A DNA stretch of 49,126 nucleotides, from assembly GCA_021786845.1 (NCBI GenBank), contig JAJYMO010000065.1, positions 1 to 49,126 of the forward strand, read 5' to 3'. Positions 1,582 to 42,010 of this stretch are shown piece after piece. Numbering within the stretch: the first letter of the stretch is position 1; each line of letters opens with the position of its first letter. The position numbers and the translations under genes are program-made. Under the pieces are notes generated by a model, which had not been told where the DNA came from, did no database searches, and was given only the letters and a program-made list of their open reading frames with translations. This DNA comes from Pseudomonadota bacterium. Lineage in GTDB: Bacteria > Pseudomonadota > Gammaproteobacteria > Burkholderiales > Sulfuriferulaceae.

Positions 1582-2256
1582 ATGACCTGTCATTCAATTC
1601 CTGTTATCGCTATTGACGGACCTTCTGCATCGGGCAAGGGAACGGTGGCAGCGCTGGTGGCGCAACGACTCGGTTTTCACTGTTTGGACAGCGGTGCGCT
1701 TTACCGCTTAACGGCTTTGGTTGCGAACAGCAATGGCGTGGCTTTGAGTGACGAAGCCGGGTTGGCGCAAGTGGCGTTAAGTTTGGATGTCGAGTTTGTG
1801 GCAGGCGGCATGACCTTAATGGGTCGGCCCGTGGATGAGGCCATGCGCAGTGAAGCCATCAGTGCTGCGGCCTCACGTGTGGCCCAATATCATGGTGTGC
1901 GCATGGCCTTGCTGGCGCGACAGCGCGCATTTCGCCAGGCACCCGGATTGGTGGCTGATGGGCGAGATATGGGCTCAGTGGTGTTCCCCGATGCGTGCTT
2001 GAAGCTATATTTAACGGCGAGTGTGGAAATGCGTGCGGAACGTCGTTATAAGCAGTTGATGGAGAAAGGAATACATGTTATTCTTCGTAACTTGCTTGAT
2101 GAATTGCGTGAACGTGATTTGCGTGATGCCACGCGCCAGCTTGCGCCATTGATTCAACAAGCAGATGCCATATTGTTGGACACCAGTCAGATGACGATTG
2201 CAGAAGCCGTTGAATTTGTGTTGGTGCACTACGAAAAGGTAAGGGTTCGTGAATGA
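1582..2256 (+). CDS. cmk: Cytidylate kinase
   Basis: Phosphorylates CMP and dCMP with ATP in the cytosol. The P-loop GPSASGKGT is at residues 13-21, and VADGRDMGSVVFPDA is the conserved CMP-binding segment near the middle. From ATG 1582 the protein is 224 aa, close to the 227 aa of E. coli Cmk. The frame is open further upstream (to 1519), but that would overlap aroA by 58 nt and add 21 residues the family lacks, so I chose 1582. It lies between aroA and rpsA, the conserved neighbours of cmk. Confidence 0.95.
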   Translation: MTCHSIPVIAIDGPSASGKGTVAALVAQRLGFHCLDSGALYRLTALVANSNGVALSDEAGLAQVALSLDVEFVAGGMTLMGRPVDEAMRSEAISAAASRVAQYHGVRMALLARQRAFRQAPGLVADGRDMGSVVFPDACLKLYLTASVEMRAERRYKQLMEKGIHVILRNLLDELRERDLRDATRQLAPLIQQADAILLDTSQMTIAEAVEFVLVHYEKVRVRE

Positions 2257-2352
2257 GTATGCGGGCCCTAATGGGTGTTCGGATGGATGTCCATCCCGAA
2301 TCAATTTAATTTTCCCCGCCATGTGGTGGGTTTTTGCTTAGGTCATTTGTTC
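2257..2352 (+). promoter_or_regulatory. rpsA leader with three tandem hairpins
   Basis: The cmk-rpsA gap holds three short hairpins with 4-nt loops: GCCC-taat-GGGT (2265-2276), GGATGG-atgt-CCATCC (2281-2296) and CCCGCC-atgt-GGTGGG (2315-2330). The last is followed by TTTTT and so looks like an intrinsic terminator. In E. coli the rpsA leader also folds into successive hairpins that S1 protein uses for translational autoregulation; a similar role here is inference. The third hairpin could instead attenuate transcription ahead of rpsA. Confidence 0.55.
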
Positions 2353-4071
2353 ATGTCTATTGTTTCCACCTCTACCGTTGCCGAATCAGGCATGGAAAGT
2401 TTCGCTGCTTTATTTGAAGAAAGTCTGAGTCGGCAAGAGCTGCGCGCTGGCGAAGTGATTACTGCAGAAGTCGTTGCGATTGACGACAATTTTGTTACCG
2501 TGAATGCGGGACTTAAATCTGAAAGTTTGATTGCCAGAGAAGAATTTCTTACCGATCGTGGTGAACTGGAAGTGGCCGTGGGCGATTTCGTCAGCGTTGC
2601 CATCGAAATGCTGGAAGATGGTTATGGCGCTACACGTTTATCGCGTGACAAAGCCAAACGGTTGGCGGCCTGGATAGGATTAGAAAAATCCATGGAAGAC
2701 GGTGAAATTATCACCGGCATGGTGAATGGTAAAGTAAAAGGCGGTTTGACCGTCATGGTCAACGGCATTCGTGCCTTCTTGCCGGGTTCACTGGTGGATG
2801 TCCGCCCAGTGAAGGACACCACGCCCTATGAAAACAAGGAAATGGAATTTAAGGTCATTAAACTTGACCGTAAACGTAATAATGTCGTGGTTTCCCGTCG
2901 AGCCGTACTGGAAGCCACCGTGGGCGCTGACCGTGACGCTTTAATGGCCAATTTGAAAGAAGGCTCTATCGTCAAAGGTGTGGTGAAAAACATCACCGAT
3001 TACGGCGCATTTGTTGATTTGGGTGGTATTGACGGCCTGTTACATATTACTGACATGGCTTGGCGTCGTGTGAAGCATCCAACTGAAGTGGTGCAAGTAG
3101 GTGATGAAGTCGAAGCCAAGATTCTTAAATTTGATCAAGAAAAAAACCGTGTTTCATTAGGCATCAAACAATTGGGTGATGATCCCTGGCATGGTTTGGC
3201 ACGGCGTTACCCTTCCGGTACGCGCATGTTCGGCAAGGTGGCTAACCTGACTGACTATGGCGCGTTTGTGGAAATTGAAACTGGAATTGAAGGCTTGGTT
3301 CACGTTTCTGAAATGGATTGGACGAACAAAAACGTACACCCATCTAAAGTTGTACAACTCGGCGATGAAGTTGAAGTCATTGTGCTGGAAATTGATGAAG
3401 AACGCCGTCGCATTTCTCTGGGCATGAAACAGTGCAAAACAAACCCATGGGATGATTTTGAAGCCAGCCATAAAAAAGGCGACAAAATCTCCGGCCAGAT
3501 CAAATCAATTACTGATTTTGGTGTGTTTATTGGTTTGCCCGGCGGCATAGATGGTTTGGTGCACTTGTCTGATTTGTCCTGGACCTTGCCCGGCGAAGAA
3601 GCTGTGCGTAATTTCCGTAAGGGTGATGAAGTTCAAGCTGTGGTGCTGGCGATAGATGTGGAGCGTGAACGCATTTCCATGGGCATCAAGCAGGTTGAAA
3701 ATGATCCTGTCAGCAGTTTCGTGAGTAATTTTGATAAAGGCAGTCTGGTCAAGGGGACTGTCAAGTCGCTCGATGCAAAGGGTGCTGTGATTCAACTCGA
3801 AAATGATGTAGAAGCTTACTTGCGCGCATCGGAGTTTTCGCGTGATCGGGTTGAAGACATTCGCAACCACCTCAAAGAGGGTGATGTCATTGAGGCCATG
3901 ATCACTAATGTGGATCGCAAAACCCGTAGCATTCAATTGTCCATCAAAGCGAAAGATGCAGCTGAACACACTGAAGCCATGCAAAAAATGGCAAGTGATC
4001 AGTCTGCTAACAGCGGGACCACCAATTTGGGCGCCTTGCTGAAAGCAAAACTTGACAACCGTAACGCTTAA
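2353..4071 (+). CDS. rpsA: 30S ribosomal protein S1
   Basis: S1 binds mRNA and helps the 30S subunit initiate translation. From ATG 2353 the protein is 572 aa with six S1 (OB-fold) repeats; clear repeat signatures are [40 protein letters not shown] and [20 protein letters not shown]. It begins [23 protein letters not shown] 2392 ([11 protein letters not shown]) is the alternative start and matches the E. coli N-terminus more closely. The open frame back to 2275 runs through the leader hairpins and is unlikely to be translated. ihfB follows after 17 nt, the classic rpsA-ihfB pair. Confidence 0.97.
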
Positions 4072-4088
4072 TTCTGAAAGGCAACGAC

Positions 4089-4373
4089 ATGACCAAGTCC
4101 GAACTTATTTCACAACTGGCAACACGCTATCCTTTGTTGGCTGTTTCTGATACAGAACTGGCGGTAAAGGTTATGCTGGATGCGGTTTCTCGTAGTTTAG
4201 CGGAAGGTAAACGCGTAGAGATAAGGGGTTTTGGCAGCTTTAACCTGAATTATCGCCCACCACGTGCAGGGCGTAATCCAAAGACAGGCTCTCCGGTTGC
4301 TGTGCCAGCGAAATATGTTCCGCATTTTAAGCCAGGTAAGGAATTGCGGGAACGGGTGGATTATCCTCTGTAA
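4089..4373 (+). CDS. ihfB: Integration host factor beta subunit
   Basis: A DNA-bending nucleoid protein that pairs with IhfA. The 94 aa match the family length, with [20 protein letters not shown] containing the minor-groove-inserting arm and [14 protein letters not shown] at the C-terminus, nearly identical to E. coli IhfB. A GAAAGG Shine-Dalgarno precedes ATG 4089. It is the last gene of the aroA-cmk-rpsA-ihfB block and is followed by a terminator. Confidence 0.97.
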
Positions 4374-4934: not shown

Positions 4935-6095
4935 ATGGAATTTGAACTCTGGTGGTTACTTGCGTTACCCTTGTTTTTTGGATTAGGGTGGTTGGCAGCT
5001 CGTGTGGATATACGTCAAGTCATGACAGAATCCAGAGCTGTACCTGCTTCATATTTTCGTGGGCTGAATTATTTGCTCAATGAGCAACCTGATCGCGCGA
5101 TAGAGGCCTTTATCGAAGTAGTGAAAGTCGACAGCGATACCGTCGATTTGCACTTTGCGCTGGGGGGCTTGTTTCGTAAACGCGGTGAAGTTGAGCGCGC
5201 TATTCGTATGCACCAAAACCTGGTTGACCGCGAAGATTTGTCGGTGGAACAGCAAGTTAAAGCACGCTTTGAGCTGGGGCAGGATTATCTTAAAGCCGGG
5301 TTGCTTGACCGCGCCGAAGCCATTTTTACTCATTTAAATATGGGTGAAATGGCGGAGCAAGCAAGAAATTTTTTGCTGGAAATTTATGTGCAGGAAAAAG
5401 ACTGGAGTAAAGCCATTTCTGCTGCACAGGAGTTGTCGCGAGGCAGTAATCAGGCCTTGCATGTGGAAATTGGGCATTATTACTGCGAATTGGCCAATCA
5501 GGCATGGTTAGGTGATCAGATTGAGGTGGCGCGGGCTTATCTCAGTGATGCGCTGACAGCCAATCGCGATTGCGTGCGAGCCAATATGCTGTTGGGCGAC
5601 ATTGCGATCGGTCGTGATGAAGTCAATGCTGCGATTACCGCGTGGCGCAGGGTAGAATCACAAAATGAGCCCTATCTGACCCTGGTGGCAGAACGTATTA
5701 TGGCGGCGTATCGTCGTGCAGGTCGTGAAGCGGAAGGACTGGCTTTTTTGCGTCATGCGTTAAACAGGCAAGCCTCGCATGAATTATTTGATGTAGAATT
5801 TTCTGCCGTGCTTCGACTGGAAGGTGCACAAGCGGCCTGGGTCGTTGCGAATGAGCAATTGCGGCGCAGCACCAATTTGCGTAGTCTGGACAGGATGCTT
5901 GAAGCAGAAATCATGATTGCGCCATCTGAGCGACAAGCGGAGGTACAACTGGTCAAACAGGCTGTACATGCTCATGTGCATAGCTTGTTGGTATATCAAT
6001 GTCAAGACTGTGGTTTTAAAGCGCGTAGTTTTTTTTGGCGTTGCCCTGCCTGTGGTCAGTGGGACAGTTTCCCCCCTCAAAGGAAAGAGGATTAA
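4935..6095 (+). CDS. lapB: Lipopolysaccharide assembly protein LapB
   Basis: A membrane-anchored TPR protein that in E. coli (YciM) controls LPS synthesis by promoting FtsH degradation of LpxC. The 386 aa contain one N-terminal membrane segment (about residues 6-22), TPR repeats over about 35-340, and a C-terminal rubredoxin-like zinc site with CQDCGF and CPACGQW. Length and architecture match E. coli LapB. It sits between lapA and pyrF in the conserved order, and pyrF starts 15 nt after its stop. Confidence 0.95.
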   Translation: MEFELWWLLALPLFFGLGWLAARVDIRQVMTESRAVPASYFRGLNYLLNEQPDRAIEAFIEVVKVDSDTVDLHFALGGLFRKRGEVERAIRMHQNLVDREDLSVEQQVKARFELGQDYLKAGLLDRAEAIFTHLNMGEMAEQARNFLLEIYVQEKDWSKAISAAQELSRGSNQALHVEIGHYYCELANQAWLGDQIEVARAYLSDALTANRDCVRANMLLGDIAIGRDEVNAAITAWRRVESQNEPYLTLVAERIMAAYRRAGREAEGLAFLRHALNRQASHELFDVEFSAVLRLEGAQAAWVVANEQLRRSTNLRSLDRMLEAEIMIAPSERQAEVQLVKQAVHAHVHSLLVYQCQDCGFKARSFFWRCPACGQWDSFPPQRKED

Positions 6096-38720: not shown

Positions 38721-38790
38721 AATGGGGGACAGACCACGATTTTCACAATCATTCCCGGAGTTCATCATAAATTGTGGTCTGTCCCCAATT
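38721..38790. repeat. Inverted repeat, copy 1 (GGGGACAGACCAC type)
   Basis: The left arm 38721-38742 and right arm 38769-38790 are inverted copies of about 22 nt with two mismatches around the core GGGGACAGACCAC. The loop is about 26 nt. The same core occurs at 39499-39597 and 41942-42010. No transposase is in the window. Confidence 0.8.
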
Positions 38791-38866: not shown

Positions 38867-39103
38867 ATGCATAACAGGCAAATATCGAAATCAGCATTCA
38901 AGGCAAAGGCGCTCGAATATTTTCGTCAAATTGCATCATCTGGAGAGAGCGTGATTGTGACGGATCATGGCAAGCCCGCGCTGGAAGTACGCCCATATCG
39001 GGACACCGCCCGACAGCCACTCGATGTCTTGCGCGGCTCTTTAATCAGGTATGAGCATCCAACAGACCCGGTTGCGGTGGATTTTTGGACGGCTGCGCAG
39101 TGA
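38867..39103 (+). CDS. Antitoxin, Phd/YefM family
   Basis: A 78-aa protein of the Phd/YefM type: SAFKAKALEYFRQIASSGESV and VIVTDHGKPALEVRPY form the usual N-terminal DNA-binding fold. The C-terminal tail (about 50-78) would bind and neutralise the toxin. It likely represses its own operon. Weak AGGGG upstream of ATG 38867. Its stop overlaps the toxin start as GTGA, so the pair is translationally coupled. Confidence 0.88.
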   Translation: MHNRQISKSAFKAKALEYFRQIASSGESVIVTDHGKPALEVRPYRDTARQPLDVLRGSLIRYEHPTDPVAVDFWTAAQ

Positions 39104-39495
39104 TCGTTCTGGATACCCATGCACTGGTATGGTGGGTGACAGGCGATGCCGCGTTAAGCAAAAGCGCCAAAGCGGCCATTGAATTCGAGCAGACCAGCGG
39201 CGAAATTATTATTTCGGCCATTACTGCCTGGGAAATTGCAATGCTGGTTGAGCATGACCGGTTGGTGCTGTCCATGGATGTTGATAACTGGATTTCAACC
39301 GTGGCCGACATTGATGCGGTGAGGTTCATGTCAATTGATATTGAAATTGCGATGAAATCTGTTGTATTACCGGGCGAGTTTCATAAAGACCCCGCAGACC
39401 GCATGATTGTGGCGACGGCACGTAAACTGGCTGCACCGCTCGTCACTAAGGACGATAAATTACGCGGGTATCCGCACGTCCACACCATTTGGTAG
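39100..39495 (+). CDS. vapC: Toxin, PIN-domain ribonuclease (VapC type)
   Basis: A PIN-domain RNase, 131 aa from GTG 39100. The four acidic active-site residues are visible: Asp5 (VLDTHALVWW), Glu45 (AITAWEIAML), Asp97/Asp100 (KDPADRMIVATA) and Asp118/Asp119 (VTKDDKL). The frame is open to TTG 39085, but GTG 39100 overlaps the antitoxin stop and begins directly at the PIN strand. PIN toxins paired with Phd-type antitoxins are common. A repeat copy begins 4 nt after the stop. Confidence 0.9.
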   Translation: MIVLDTHALVWWVTGDAALSKSAKAAIEFEQTSGEIIISAITAWEIAMLVEHDRLVLSMDVDNWISTVADIDAVRFMSIDIEIAMKSVVLPGEFHKDPADRMIVATARKLAAPLVTKDDKLRGYPHVHTIW

Positions 39496-39498
39496 GGA

Positions 39499-39597
39499 GA
39501 ATGGGGGCAGCCCACAATTTTCATACGTCTTCCCTGTTCCCTGCTACCAGATAATCCACATTCTTCGCTTGCATCATTTGTAGTCTGTCCCCCATTC
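39499..39597. repeat. Inverted repeat, copy 2 (degenerate)
   Basis: The left arm GAATGGGGGCAGCCCACAAT starts at 39499; the right arm, reverse-complemented, reads GAATGGGGGACAGACTACAA and ends at about 39597. The arms differ at several positions and enclose about 50 nt. It starts 4 nt after the toxin stop, so copies 1 and 2 bracket the toxin-antitoxin pair. Confidence 0.7.
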
Positions 39598-39640
39598 CAC
39601 AGATAAGTACAATTTAATTGTGTTTATTATGAAAAATTGA

Positions 39641-39669
39641 TTGACATTGCTGGCGCTTGGCAGTAAAGT
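39641..39669 (+). promoter_or_regulatory. Sigma-70 promoter ahead of the structured leader
   Basis: A consensus TTGACA (39641-39646), exactly 17 nt, then TAAAGT (39664-39669). The predicted start is near 39676. No long ORF follows for 340 nt, which points to a long 5' UTR or a small RNA. Confidence 0.68.
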
Positions 39670-39675
39670 CCGCCC

Positions 39676-40022
39676 GTTATTATTACTTGGAGGCCCATCT
39701 TGGACAGTTGCTCCTGTAGATTATTCTACGCGCAGTAAGTCAGCGAGATCGCGGCCTTTTCTTATATACCGCCGTCTCGCTGATAAAGCGGGGCGGTGCG
39801 TCACATCAGCAGTGCAGTTGTTATCACTGCGATCAGCACCCCCATAAAATTGTTGAATGGCTTTGCCATATTTCCGTTTCGGATATGGTTTGGCTGACAT
39901 GTTCATTTTGCCTTGGCGTTTGTCGCTTTGTCTGGGTGAATTGTGCGTAAATTCAACGTTAATACGCAGTCGAAATCCGGTATTGCCGGATCAGGACTTG
40001 CAATTTATGTGAGGTCGAAATC
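39676..40022 (+). ncRNA. Structured untranslated leader or small RNA, unidentified
   Basis: About 350 nt without a credible gene but with four hairpins. (1) 39740-39783: TCAGCGAGA/TCTCGCTGA with inner CGGC/GCCG. (2) 39790-39843: outer GGGG and GGTGC pairing with GCACC and CCC, inner GCAGT/ACTGC. (3) 39866-39888: CCATAT/ATATGG with CCG-ttt-CGG tip. (4) 39975-39991: ATCCGG-tattg-CCGGAT, 31 nt before the first short ORF. Riboswitch, leader or sRNA are all possible; I do not recognise a known class, and I found no diagnostic core motif. Confidence 0.45.
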
Positions 40023-40211
40023 ATGAAAATAAATTTCTTTTTGAGCAAAGTGGCATTCTGCATTTCCATGGAAAACTGCTGGCAAGTTGTTCGCGGTCGT
40101 GTAGCCAAAAACGTGCCCAGCCACACCATGGATCCCGGTGTAGTGCCTGTCCGTGCCGGCATGTACGGCCTTCTGGTCATGTCGGGGCATGAGCAGGATC
40201 GCAGTCGCTAG
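40023..40211 (+). CDS. Short ORF upstream of the porin, unknown
   Basis: A 62-aa frame starting MKINFFLSKVAFCISMENCW, with GAGGT at 40011-40015 and 7-nt spacing to ATG 40023. I recognise no family. It lies in the long leader and could be a leader peptide, a small protein, or a remnant. Another Shine-Dalgarno and a short ORF follow 17 nt after its stop. Confidence 0.4.
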   Translation: MKINFFLSKVAFCISMENCWQVVRGRVAKNVPSHTMDPGVVPVRAGMYGLLVMSGHEQDRSR

Positions 40212-40240
40212 GCGGTCTGCAGATTTTAAAGGAGTAAACC

Positions 40241-40285
40241 ATGGAAAGTGACAGTAAGTCTGGCGTGACCGTTCTGGCTCGGTAA
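40241..40285 (+). CDS. Very short ORF (14 codons) with strong ribosome-binding site
   Basis: AAAGGAG at 40228-40234 lies 6 nt before ATG 40241, the best Shine-Dalgarno in this region. The frame encodes MESDSKSGVTVLAR and stops at 40283. In the porin frame, codons are open from 40269 (just after a stop at 40266-40268), so a one-base shift near 40266-40282 would join this start to the porin. Either a leader peptide or a broken 5' end. Confidence 0.4.
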   Translation: MESDSKSGVTVLAR

Positions 40286-40454
40286 TCCTGTCCCGCAATT
40301 CATTTGCGTCGATTGGTGGCTGGCCGGTACGGTCGCTCCGCTCGACGGTTTCCATGTGGCTGATCGCCACCTGATCCGTCTTCTGACACCTGAACACGTA
40401 TGCTGTGCGCTAATGATGAAGGCACGCATTCGCCAAAGACAGGAAAGTAACCAA

Positions 40455-41924
40455 GTGGAAAAAATGATTGATGTACATATTGATGCCAAAGCAGACCTGT
40501 TTGCGCCCGCACAGCGCCTCAGGTTTTTGCAAGGCATGATGGTGATGCTGGGCTTGACCACCGTTCAATTTGCATTTGCGCAGTCTGTAGATCCGGCTGA
40601 AAGGCCAAATGAAACGGGCAGCCCCTCCAATTTGAGTGCTGCATCGGTGAGTTCAGCGCAAATAACGCCTGTTGCAGTTGATTCTGTATCGCAATGGGCT
40701 GTTTACGGCCAGTACACCAATGTTTATCAATGGCACCCAGCGTTTAACTCGCCTTATTCAGGCACCAATAGCCTGACTGCGACCAACAATGGTGAGCAAA
40801 CGAACGATGCGACGCTTTATTTGGGATACCAGTTGTCACCCACTACCGAATTTTGGATTAACCCGGAATATGATCAAGGGTTTGGATTAAATGATACCTT
40901 GGGAGTGGCAGGTTTCCCCAGCGGCGAGGCGTATAAAGTAGGGGCCAATAATCCCTATTACCGTACGCCGCGTTTATTTATGCGCAAGGTGTTTAACCTG
41001 GGCGGTGCGGCGCAATCGATTGAAGCTGACGCCAATCAAATGGCAGAGACACGCAGTGCGGATAACCTTGTGTTGACGGTAGGCAAATTTGCGGTGACTG
41101 ATGTGTTTGATACCAACAGCTATGCGCATGACCCGCGTGCGGATTTTTTAAATTGGTCAGTCATTGATGCCGGTGCGTTTGATTATGCAGCAGATTCTTG
41201 GGGGTACAGCTATGGTGCGAGTGCTGAATGGACGCAATCATGGTGGACTTGGCGCAGCGGGGTGTTTGATTTGTCCACAGTACCAAACGGCGAAAAACTG
41301 AGTGAGAACATGAGTGAGTTTGAATTGGTGACGGAGTTTGAAGAACGGCATCAATGGCACAGCTTCCCGGGAAAAGTGAAAGTATTGGTGTTTGCGAATC
41401 ATGCACCTATGGGCAGTTATGGGCAAGCTGTGTTGCTGGGTCAGCAGACTGGGCGTGTTCCAGATACCGCACTGGTGAGGCAAATGAGTTGGCGGCCTGG
41501 TGTGGAATTGAATATGGAACAGGGTTTAAGTGAGAGTCTGGGTATATTTGGGCGTGCCAGCATGAATGATGGTGCGCAAGAGGCTTATGAGTTTACGGAT
41601 ATTAATCAATCTATTTCCGCAGGATTTTCCTTGCAAGGCAAGTCTTGGGGCAGGGAACAAGACACGGTAGGCGTGGCTTACGTGCTGAACGGCATTTCTC
41701 GTGCTGCGCAATCTTATTTTGCGGCAGGTGGCTTGGGTGTGTTGGTGGGTGATGGACAATTGCCTCATTACGGATATGAAAATATCACTGAAATGTTTTA
41801 TGCGTGGCAAATACAGCCCCGTGTGGCATTGAGCCTGGATTATCAATACATTGCCAACCCTGCGTATAACGTGGATCGTGGCCCGGTTAATGTGTTCGGC
41901 GTGCGCACACACCTGAATTTTTAG
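40455..41924 (+). CDS. Outer-membrane porin, OprB (carbohydrate-selective) type
   Basis: An outer-membrane beta-barrel of the OprB family: GYQLSPTTEFWINPEYDQGF, GAAQSIEADANQMAETRSADN, LTVGKFAVTDVFDTNSYAHDPR, DFLNWSVIDAGAFDYAAD and a C-terminus ending in Phe (FGVRTHLNF). From GTG 40455 it is 489 aa; AGGAAAG (40441-40447) supports this, and ATG 40464 is close behind. The hydrophobic signal core (MMVMLGLTTVQFAFA) follows an unusually long n-region. The substrate is not readable; OprB-like porins carry sugars, and one relative is a manganese porin. Confidence 0.83.
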   Translation: MEKMIDVHIDAKADLFAPAQRLRFLQGMMVMLGLTTVQFAFAQSVDPAERPNETGSPSNLSAASVSSAQITPVAVDSVSQWAVYGQYTNVYQWHPAFNSPYSGTNSLTATNNGEQTNDATLYLGYQLSPTTEFWINPEYDQGFGLNDTLGVAGFPSGEAYKVGANNPYYRTPRLFMRKVFNLGGAAQSIEADANQMAETRSADNLVLTVGKFAVTDVFDTNSYAHDPRADFLNWSVIDAGAFDYAADSWGYSYGASAEWTQSWWTWRSGVFDLSTVPNGEKLSENMSEFELVTEFEERHQWHSFPGKVKVLVFANHAPMGSYGQAVLLGQQTGRVPDTALVRQMSWRPGVELNMEQGLSESLGIFGRASMNDGAQEAYEFTDINQSISAGFSLQGKSWGREQDTVGVAYVLNGISRAAQSYFAAGGLGVLVGDGQLPHYGYENITEMFYAWQIQPRVALSLDYQYIANPAYNVDRGPVNVFGVRTHLNF

Positions 41925-41941
41925 TACGATAACGCGAGAAA

Positions 41942-42010
41942 CAGGGGGGGTAGACCAAAAAACAGGGGACAACCCGCAATTTATTTAATTGTGGGTTGTC
42001 CCCTGTTTTT
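41942..42010. repeat. Inverted repeat, copy 3, also a likely terminator
   Basis: A near-perfect palindrome at 41957-42010: AAAACAGGGGACAACCCGCA with its complement ending GGGTTGTCCCCTGTTTTT, one mismatch, short AT loop. The T run would stop the porin transcript, and the A run the convergent PDH transcript. A partial extra arm (GGGGGTAGACCA) lies just before it at 41945-41956. Confidence 0.75.

Follow-up and report, generated by a model that had tools for sequence, protein, structure and literature searches.

A candidate Mg2+-responsive, uORF-controlled leader upstream of an OprB-family porin gene in Burkholderiales

Introduction

Cytoplasmic Mg2+ sensing outside the enteric bacteria is, to our knowledge, poorly worked out. 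The closest described systems are leader RNAs of Salmonella and its relatives, in which translation of a short upstream open reading frame (uORF) influences the structure of the mRNA.

The leader of the Salmonella mgtCBR mRNA carries mgtM as its first uORF (PMC3641672, PMC6908480). The start codon of mgtM is UUG, and mgtM(UAG) or abolished initiation is described as raising MgtC (PMC6908480). The 2012 account of this leader describes mgtM as lacking conservation of its peptide and emphasises a run of adenines within the ORF that serves ATP sensing (PMC3641672). A further uORF, mgtQ, lies between Salmonella mgtC and mgtB; its Asp2 and Glu5 codons are reported to be needed, and alternative stem-loops are described for it (PMC8092293). 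The uORFs mgtL and corL belong to the leaders of mgtA and corA, respectively, and their efficient translation is reported to go with lower expression (PMC11552253).

Here we present a computational analysis of a leader of comparable design that precedes a porin gene. It was found in a contig assigned to the Sulfuriferulaceae; the whole stretch of DNA that was analysed (49,126 nt) is referred to as the window, and all window coordinates are given on it.

Results

Promoter and folding of the leader RNA

The leader begins with a promoter that is followed by a conserved RNA element:

39641–39669, plus strand: sigma-70-type promoter, TTGACA (39641–39646), 17 nt, TAAAGT (39664–39669)
39672–39803, plus strand: whole conserved element, 105.5 bits with covariance model R2 (the window sequence is one of the 19 members of R2)

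The promoter agrees with the consensus at 10 of 12 positions. The match alone is weak, since five promoter-like sites were found in the 6-kb region and 6.2 are expected by chance. Of 53 homologous leaders, 47 have a promoter of at least 9/12 in this position, compared with 2.6% of shuffled upstream sequences, and the promoter proposed in the original prediction is thus borne out by its match and by the conservation of its position. The structured nature of the RNA, claimed there as well, is confirmed by folding: z is -2.4 for 39670–40030 (2 of 100 shuffles equally stable), -3.6 against shuffles for 39670–40460, and -4.4 for the core at 39682–39805 (0 of 200 shuffles equally stable). The two conserved helices of this RNA are alternatives to each other, as described below.

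An Rfam search, suggested along with the original prediction, assigned the element to no known class in the window or in 14 relatives. The covariance-model scan of the window at the gathering score found no known family at the element, the scan of 39500–40500 with E up to 5 matched no family, and the only match among the 14 relatives with E up to 1 was a separate yybP-ykoY motif. The families covered include M-box, yybP-ykoY and Mg_sensor, the last of which we take to be Rfam's mgtA-leader family. The yybP-ykoY match is a manganese riboswitch in L051 (701–869, minus strand; 87.5 bits) that lies less than 1 kb from the copy of the element.

A conserved short uORF

A ribosome-binding site and a short ORF are located within the element:

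39689–39693, plus strand: Shine-Dalgarno site of uORF1, GGAGG, 6 nt before the start codon
39700–39738, plus strand: uORF1, TTG start, LDSCSCRLFYAQ, 12 codons plus stop

This 12-codon ORF corrects the earlier statement that the leader is free of ORFs with a ribosome-binding site up to position 40023. uORF1 lies within the most strongly conserved portion of the element, a purine-rich stretch precedes its start in relatives as well, and its length varies between 9 and 20 codons among them. Codon usage was counted in a set of 53 leaders, one per place, which also served for the duplex counts of helix A. The start codon is ATG in 24, TTG in 18 and GTG in 11 leaders, and codon 2 encodes D in 47, E in 2, G in 3 and N in 1; these start and codon-2 figures lean upwards because the scan admitted ATG, TTG and GTG starts only and preferred D, E or G at codon 2, and because the search model carries GGAC. 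Codon 3 encodes S in 43 of the 53 leaders. The uORF1 of the window contains one acidic residue, Asp2, and no proline. The codon for Asp2 also sits in a nucleotide-conserved block, so that its conservation may reflect constraint at the RNA level, at the peptide level or at both.

Two mutually exclusive helices

The region after the uORF1 stop contains three strands that can form two helices, designated A and B:

39740–39755, plus strand: first (5') strand of helix A, adjoining the stop codon of uORF1; TCAGCGAGA at 39740–39748 and a second block to 39755
39768–39783, plus strand: shared strand, comprising the 3' strand of helix A at 39775–39783 (TCTCGCTGA) and the 5' strand of helix B at 39768–39781
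39787–39801, plus strand: 3' strand of hairpin B, AGCGGGGCGGTG from 39787; 39764–39803 alone folds with z -4.5

Helix A is underlain by an inverted repeat (39740–39754 and 39769–39783). The helices are mutually exclusive, as the common strand pairs either upstream or downstream, and across relatives the 5' strand of helix A is formed by bases that follow the uORF1 stop immediately or lie close to it.

Compensatory changes, which the original prediction had proposed to look for in homologous upstream regions, are present in both helices. They were assessed in the 19-member alignment, made without structure, and the controls had the partner strand slid by 1–3 columns. In helix A, 89.7% of the cells are paired (30–43% in the slid controls) and two-sided changes are found at 5 of 9 pairs; the corresponding values for helix B are 96.9% (37–55% in the slid controls) and 4 of 12 pairs. 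The pairs of helix A are not part of covariance model R1 or R2. When compared with dinucleotide shuffles, 36 of the 53 leaders have a significant duplex energy of helix A at p≤0.05, and 19 still do so at p≤0.01 (mean z -2.4). The leaders are mutually related and hence not independent trials; these counts include four leaders mishandled by the automatic hairpin finder (L134, L126, L127 and L078). Helix A is not significant at p≤0.05 in 17 of the 53, and several members, such as L144, L124, L131 and the plus-strand copy of L121, lack a duplex signal. The minimum-energy fold of 39670–40030 contains helix A, and that of 39676–39803 contains hairpin B together with a helix over the uORF1 ribosome site, in agreement with two states predicted to be close in energy.

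Two further roles for hairpin B were considered and rejected. The first involves a site located downstream:

39836–39843, plus strand: GCACCCCC, putative anti-Shine-Dalgarno-like site; CACCTCC at the same place in several relatives

Pairing of the 3' strand of hairpin B with the downstream CACCTCC/GCACC had looked convincing by eye in several sequences, and gave a mean z of -0.02 with 0 of 53 leaders at p≤0.05. The second is that of an intrinsic terminator: no U-run follows hairpin B in the window, and the terminator scan (12 sites found, 7.7 expected) revealed no terminator-like site at it. A weak terminator-like site of 5 pairs is located downstream, at 39857–39869.

The conserved element might also be a Mg2+ riboswitch proper, whose own fold binds Mg2+ and in which uORF1 is incidental or a mere read-out. 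The strong nucleotide conservation within the uORF (most of the 19 aligned sequences share GGACAGTTGC) and the Mg2+ genes in its neighbourhood speak for such a reading, and an M-box riboswitch is reported to govern an NRAMP-related Mg2+ transporter gene elsewhere (PMC4072509). However, ATG, TTG and GTG interchange at the start of an ORF that is preceded by a purine-rich site and closed by an in-frame stop, the helices supported by covariation are simple and mutually exclusive, and no Rfam family matched at the thresholds used, all of which makes a Mg2+ riboswitch unlikely. As to the riboswitch of the original prediction, the conserved uORF and the helix competition beside its stop favour a translation-coupled attenuator over a ligand aptamer, although direct binding of Mg2+ is conceivable.

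Attenuation by an amino acid is a second option, with the Ser/Cys-rich uORF1 sensing charged tRNA. Many uORF1 peptides indeed read DSC(S/P)S..., and Salmonella mgtP is described as responding to proline charging (PMC3641672). Nevertheless, Cys4 and the Ser run are absent from some subfamilies (LDCQSRQQRFQFTR, MGSRPSSTEKSRRG, MNADSGRSLNAKQ), and the neighbouring genes have no evident tie to Ser or Cys metabolism; we regard this option as highly improbable.

Distribution of the element

The leader is found in two genomes of the same genus, G006 (69% identical across some 600 nt) and G005 (73% across 116 nt). Covariance model R1, built from these two leaders and that of the window, was run at E≤0.1 against the 399 genomes of the order and matches 35 of them; the order searched is what we take to be Burkholderiales in GTDB's sense. 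Model R2, with 19 members and a threshold of E≤0.01, matches 49 of the 399 genomes, and 40 of these matches are full-length and reach at least 22 bits. The matches in the other nine genomes (G024, G061, G136, G222, G323, G349, G364, G365 and G390) are short or weak. The one in G390 (L136) spans 68 nt, seemingly within a gene, and was left out, as were the matches in the remaining eight genomes, weak second places in G078 (C5) and G159 (C63), and antisense matches to hairpin B alone.

An exact-pattern search of the GTDB-species collection returned 19 contigs, 18 of which score at least 66 bits with R2; the archaeal pattern match L074 scores 10 bits and was taken as chance. Ferrovum myxofaciens P3G and Polaromonas sp. 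KJH.2, the latter with two copies, are among these contigs, and the other labels are those of MAGs assigned to Rhodocyclaceae, Gallionellaceae, Burkholderiales, Betaproteobacteria, Proteobacteria and, once, Rhodospirillales. Some of the contigs are the same records as genomes of the order search (JAJYPN010000010, for example, is G006:C12).

A class-wide search matched 1 of 321 genomes, the window's own. The phylum-wide search matched 5 of 249: the window's own, three genomes of one genus that belongs to another order of the same class, and a partial match (L160) that was regarded as chance. Within that genus, 16 of 25 genomes match; at the family level, matches occur in 10 of 99 genomes, spread over three genera. 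Of the 16 genomes matched in the genus, 15 have mgtC directly downstream; their MgtC is 58–60% identical to the MgtC of L085, and Pfam MgtC was confirmed on a piece of one. The sole exception among the 16 is L164, in which the element (1501–1624) was not found to be followed by an MgtC gene. Plasmids searched with the leaders of the window, L079 and L140 gave no match, and neither did E. coli genomes searched with the Serratia leader described below.

Two genomes have two oppositely oriented elements close to a transporter gene: in L133, at 1760–1889 (plus strand) and 5485–5614 (minus strand), and in L121, at 3165–3297 (minus strand) and 3590–3732 (plus strand).

Downstream genes

The presumed target of the leader in the window is a porin gene:

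40464–41924, plus strand: OprB-family porin gene, presumed target (PF04966, 7.4e-46)

This gene is the only one of the Mg2+/OprB neighbour set in the window, and no transporter gene adjoins it in this genome, whose two NRAMP genes are located elsewhere and are at most 36% identical to the leader-linked NRMT queries. Relatives of the porin adjoin NRMT or MgtA genes. The leader is followed by the porin gene and then an NRAMP-like gene in G006, and by an NRAMP-like gene and then the porin gene in G005.

The neighbours of the full-length R2 matches were surveyed on the same strand within 4.5 kb by tblastn, the queries being proteins of these loci and of the window. The 57 rows were reduced to 51 informative places by dropping duplicates (L087, equal to L144; L088, equal to L040; L090, equal to L139) and places with less than 650 nt downstream (L082, L145 and L078). 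An NRAMP-type, MgtA, MgtE, MgtC or OprB gene is found in 42 of the 51 places, with a transporter or MgtC in 31 and OprB alone, so far as the sequence reaches, in 11. The suggestion that the RNA is a leader for the porin gene is in good agreement with this survey. Among the 31 places, L155 has an NRAMP of a different type, and the NRMT gene of L149 is present only as pieces. The NRMT gene of L146 was found as two short tblastn pieces (2193–2396 and 2486–2626) and hence looks broken or incomplete in the assembly.

Neither a Mg2+ gene nor OprB was found downstream in the remaining 9 of the 51 places. The element precedes katG, encoding a catalase-peroxidase (1968–4175), in L150, and a small protein outside the Mg2+/OprB families in L128 and L119. 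In L130, L132 and L134, three genomes of one genus, it is followed by an MgtA-like fragment and a DnaJ-type gene; the fragment comprises about 200–220 aa and resembles only part of MgtA, with about 40% identity over 119–131 residues in L130. L147 contains an orphan element, followed by an ORF of the uORF2 type (see below) and then by opposite-strand genes, and nothing was recognised downstream of the minus-strand copy in L133 and the plus-strand copy in L121. A stand-alone small RNA of about 130–350 nt, also named in the original prediction, would suit the orphan element and the weak 5-pair site downstream of hairpin B, but very little room is left for it: hairpin B has no U-run directly after it, the uORF is conserved, and 42 of the 51 places have a Mg2+ or porin gene on the same strand.

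The assignment of the neighbours to families was examined with profile models, and Pfam confirmation covered part of the loci. With the NCBIfam model for MgtA (cut-off 611), all three proteins tested (L156, L123 and L126) score 1264–1363 bits, and the MgtE of L122 scores 294 bits against a cut-off of 233. The MgtC of L085, at 221 bits, is just below the NCBIfam cut-off of 255 and above the Pfam MgtC cut-off. Six NRAMP proteins, of which that of L155 is cut by the locus end, reach 72–117 bits against an MntH cut-off of 430; with the general model Nramp_1 (cut-off 50), one of the six is above (57.5) and one at the cut-off (50.0). The signature reported for NRMTs consists of DxxG on helix 1, TxxA/T on helix 6 and the replacement of a His by Trp (PMC8806188). 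Helix 6 reads TTVAPW or TTIAPW in 11 of 12 sequences, which fits the motif TxxA/T with His replaced by Trp. Helix 1 was found in 11 of the 12 and reads DAGA in 7, DAGG in 3 and DPSG in 1, the NRMT pattern DxxG thus being present in 4 of 11.

These data bear on the metal. NRAMP family proteins are often Mn2+/Fe2+ transporters and two of the six are over or at the Nramp_1 cut-off, but the low MntH scores, the helix-6 motif and the presence of MgtA, MgtE and MgtC among the neighbours make control of a metal porin by manganese, iron or another such metal hardly credible. The idea of metal control contained in the original prediction therefore stands in kind, with Mg2+ indicated by the neighbours in preference to manganese.

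Further small ORFs and flanking features

Two additional ORFs lie between the element and the porin gene, which is followed by an inverted repeat:

40023–40211, plus strand: uORF2, small protein of 62 aa with YGLLV near the C-terminus; ORF of the same type in relatives
40241–40285, plus strand: uORF3, MESDSKSGVTVLAR followed by a stop, preceded by AGGAG; a relative in G006 at the equivalent position (L040, 3565–3609)
41958–42010, plus strand: strong terminator-like inverted repeat after the porin gene, from the terminator and inverted-repeat scans

The ORF noted previously at 40023 is real. ORFs of its type, with [Y/F]-[G/A/S/V]-x-L near the C-terminus, are found in 23 of 56 downstream stretches compared with 6 of 1120 shuffles. 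Eighteen of the 23 are clear and distinct; the others were discounted, as L121 is chance-like, the ORF in L130 and L134 is the end of a longer protein, the case of L081 is uncertain and L088 duplicates L040. The relatives of uORF2 comprise about 50–71 aa and are positioned between uORF1 and the transport genes (L040, L041, L053, L077, L137, L140, L147 and others). Pfam gave no match for the uORF2 of the window. The MgtA-like fragments in L130 and L134 have a uORF2-like ending as well.

The evidence for uORF3 comes from two genomes only. Its peptide, MESDSKSGVTVLAR, has two acidic residues within the first four and is encoded ahead of the porin.

The inverted repeats at 38721–38790 and 41958–42010 have arms that resemble GGGGACAGACCACGATT and GGGGACAACCCGCAATT. 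Near copies of 17 bases taken from the first are rare, with four sites in the genome at up to one mismatch, two of them here. Directly upstream of the leader lies a toxin-antitoxin-like pair (38867–39103 and 39085–39495), consisting of a Phd/YefM-type antitoxin, below the Pfam cut-off, and a PIN-domain protein.

Discussion

The promoter, the uORF, the two exclusive helices and the Mg2+-transport neighbours are supported by computation. The element is most likely a Mg2+-responsive switch, because the same arrangement precedes Mg2+-transport genes in many other bacteria, and we consider it probable that the leader of a Mg2+-regulated porin mRNA acts here as a translation-coupled, uORF-controlled attenuator. 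Mg2+ as the signal, the ON/OFF direction, the output step and Mg2+ as the cargo of the porin are inferred. The ON/OFF direction is borrowed from Salmonella mgtM and mgtL, and hairpin B is taken as the OFF form by analogy with the behaviour of mgtM, mgtL and corL.

In such an attenuator, transcription would start just after the promoter and a ribosome would initiate on uORF1 (LDSC..., with Asp as codon 2). When Mg2+ is ample, uORF1 would be completed, and the ribosome on the stop codon (39736–39738) would cover the 5' strand of helix A, since the stop nearly abuts this strand in the window. With the strand masked, the shared strand would pair into hairpin B and porin expression would be held down. 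Acidic residues near the start of a nascent chain destabilise ribosomes, and when Mg2+ is low, ribosomes on such N-termini would be unstable; a ribosome that fails early or does not initiate would leave the 5' strand of helix A free to capture the shared strand, so that hairpin B could not form and the mRNA would be expressed. Hairpin B is without a U-tract, and the output step may be Rho or the access of ribosomes to uORF2 and the porin. The porin would pass Mg2+ through the outer membrane, and in relatives the same element also stands before the gene for an inner-membrane Mg2+ transporter.

If this is true, one Mg2+ regulon would join an outer-membrane porin family and NRAMP-related transporters. 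The uORF switch, kept across many genera, would supply natural variants for studying the first-codon basis of the sensitivity of ribosomes to Mg2+. Beyond the enterics, the element provides a leader candidate for an mgtC gene; in P. aeruginosa, strong induction of mgtC at low Mg2+ is reported (PMC4469704).

A wider reading is put forward tentatively, being in our judgement almost as credible as its denial. One ancestral leader class, with an M/L/V-D-S uORF and a three-strand helix switch, would constitute a Mg2+-stress switch common to many beta- and gammaproteobacteria that was previously noticed only as enterobacterial mgtM and that spread in Burkholderiales over MgtA, MgtE, MgtC, NRMT and a dedicated outer-membrane Mg2+ porin. 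On this reading, ribosome performance on one short peptide would set the path of Mg2+ from the outer membrane to the cytoplasm.

Comparison with known Mg2+ leaders

The original prediction envisaged an undescribed RNA. That description is apt insofar as no Rfam family matched and no published account of the element was found in the open-licence literature searched, and it needs qualification insofar as the design, and perhaps the descent, is shared with the mgtM leader.

The more distant systems resemble the element in their targets. The mgtE motif of Thioalkalivibrio, compared here by its description, is likewise a structured leader before a Mg2+ transporter gene, but is reported as a riboswitch candidate in one genus (PMC11109978). 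The M-box (ykoK) riboswitch is described as controlling Mg2+ transporter genes, including an NRAMP-related one (PMC4072509), and as tied to an uORF in Mycobacterium (PMC12810186). The element shows no sign of the M-box fold, given that Rfam yielded no match, and it differs from the mgtA leader (Mg_sensor) in the same respect.

The uORF-based leaders are closer in design. In the mgtL and corL leaders, as in the model proposed here, uORF translation is reported to set alternative structures in the leaders of Mg2+ transporter genes, and corL shares the UUG start (PMC11552253). By contrast, mgtL is described as acting through proline and acidic codons, which are lacking in uORF1 of the window except for Asp2. 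The element has in common with mgtQ, as described, a tiny uORF with an acidic codon 2, competition between stem-loop strands and the control of a Mg2+ transporter gene; mgtQ differs in its position inside an operon and in its second acidic codon, Glu5, where the window uORF1 has Asp2 only.

The greatest likeness is to mgtM. Both leaders have a short UUG-start ORF near the 5' end (TTG at 39700 in the window), mutually exclusive structures beside this ORF (the Salmonella helices being known here by description), and a second uORF with Mg2+-stress genes downstream. Differences are found in the target, which in the window is a porin gene instead of mgtC, and in the adenine stretch reported for mgtM, which is absent from uORF1 of the window; the Serratia uORF is A-rich. 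The second ORF of the window has 62 codons and no consecutive prolines, unlike mgtP, which is described as a proline-rich ORF of 17 codons.

R2 gave no match in the mgtC regions of one Pantoea and two Cupriavidus. It matches just upstream of mgtC in Klebsiella pneumoniae (CP125156; 16.8 bits) and Serratia marcescens (AP028600; 14.5 bits, with about half of the model skipped). These two mgtC leaders contain TTG-GAC-AGT uORFs, encoding (M)DSHPYCDFPAS and (M)DSCSCNKTNKAS, respectively, helices A and B are recognisable in them by eye, and the matches sit where mgtM sits in Salmonella. From these sequences and low R2 scores, homology of the element with the enterobacterial mgtC leaders is tentatively judged likely.
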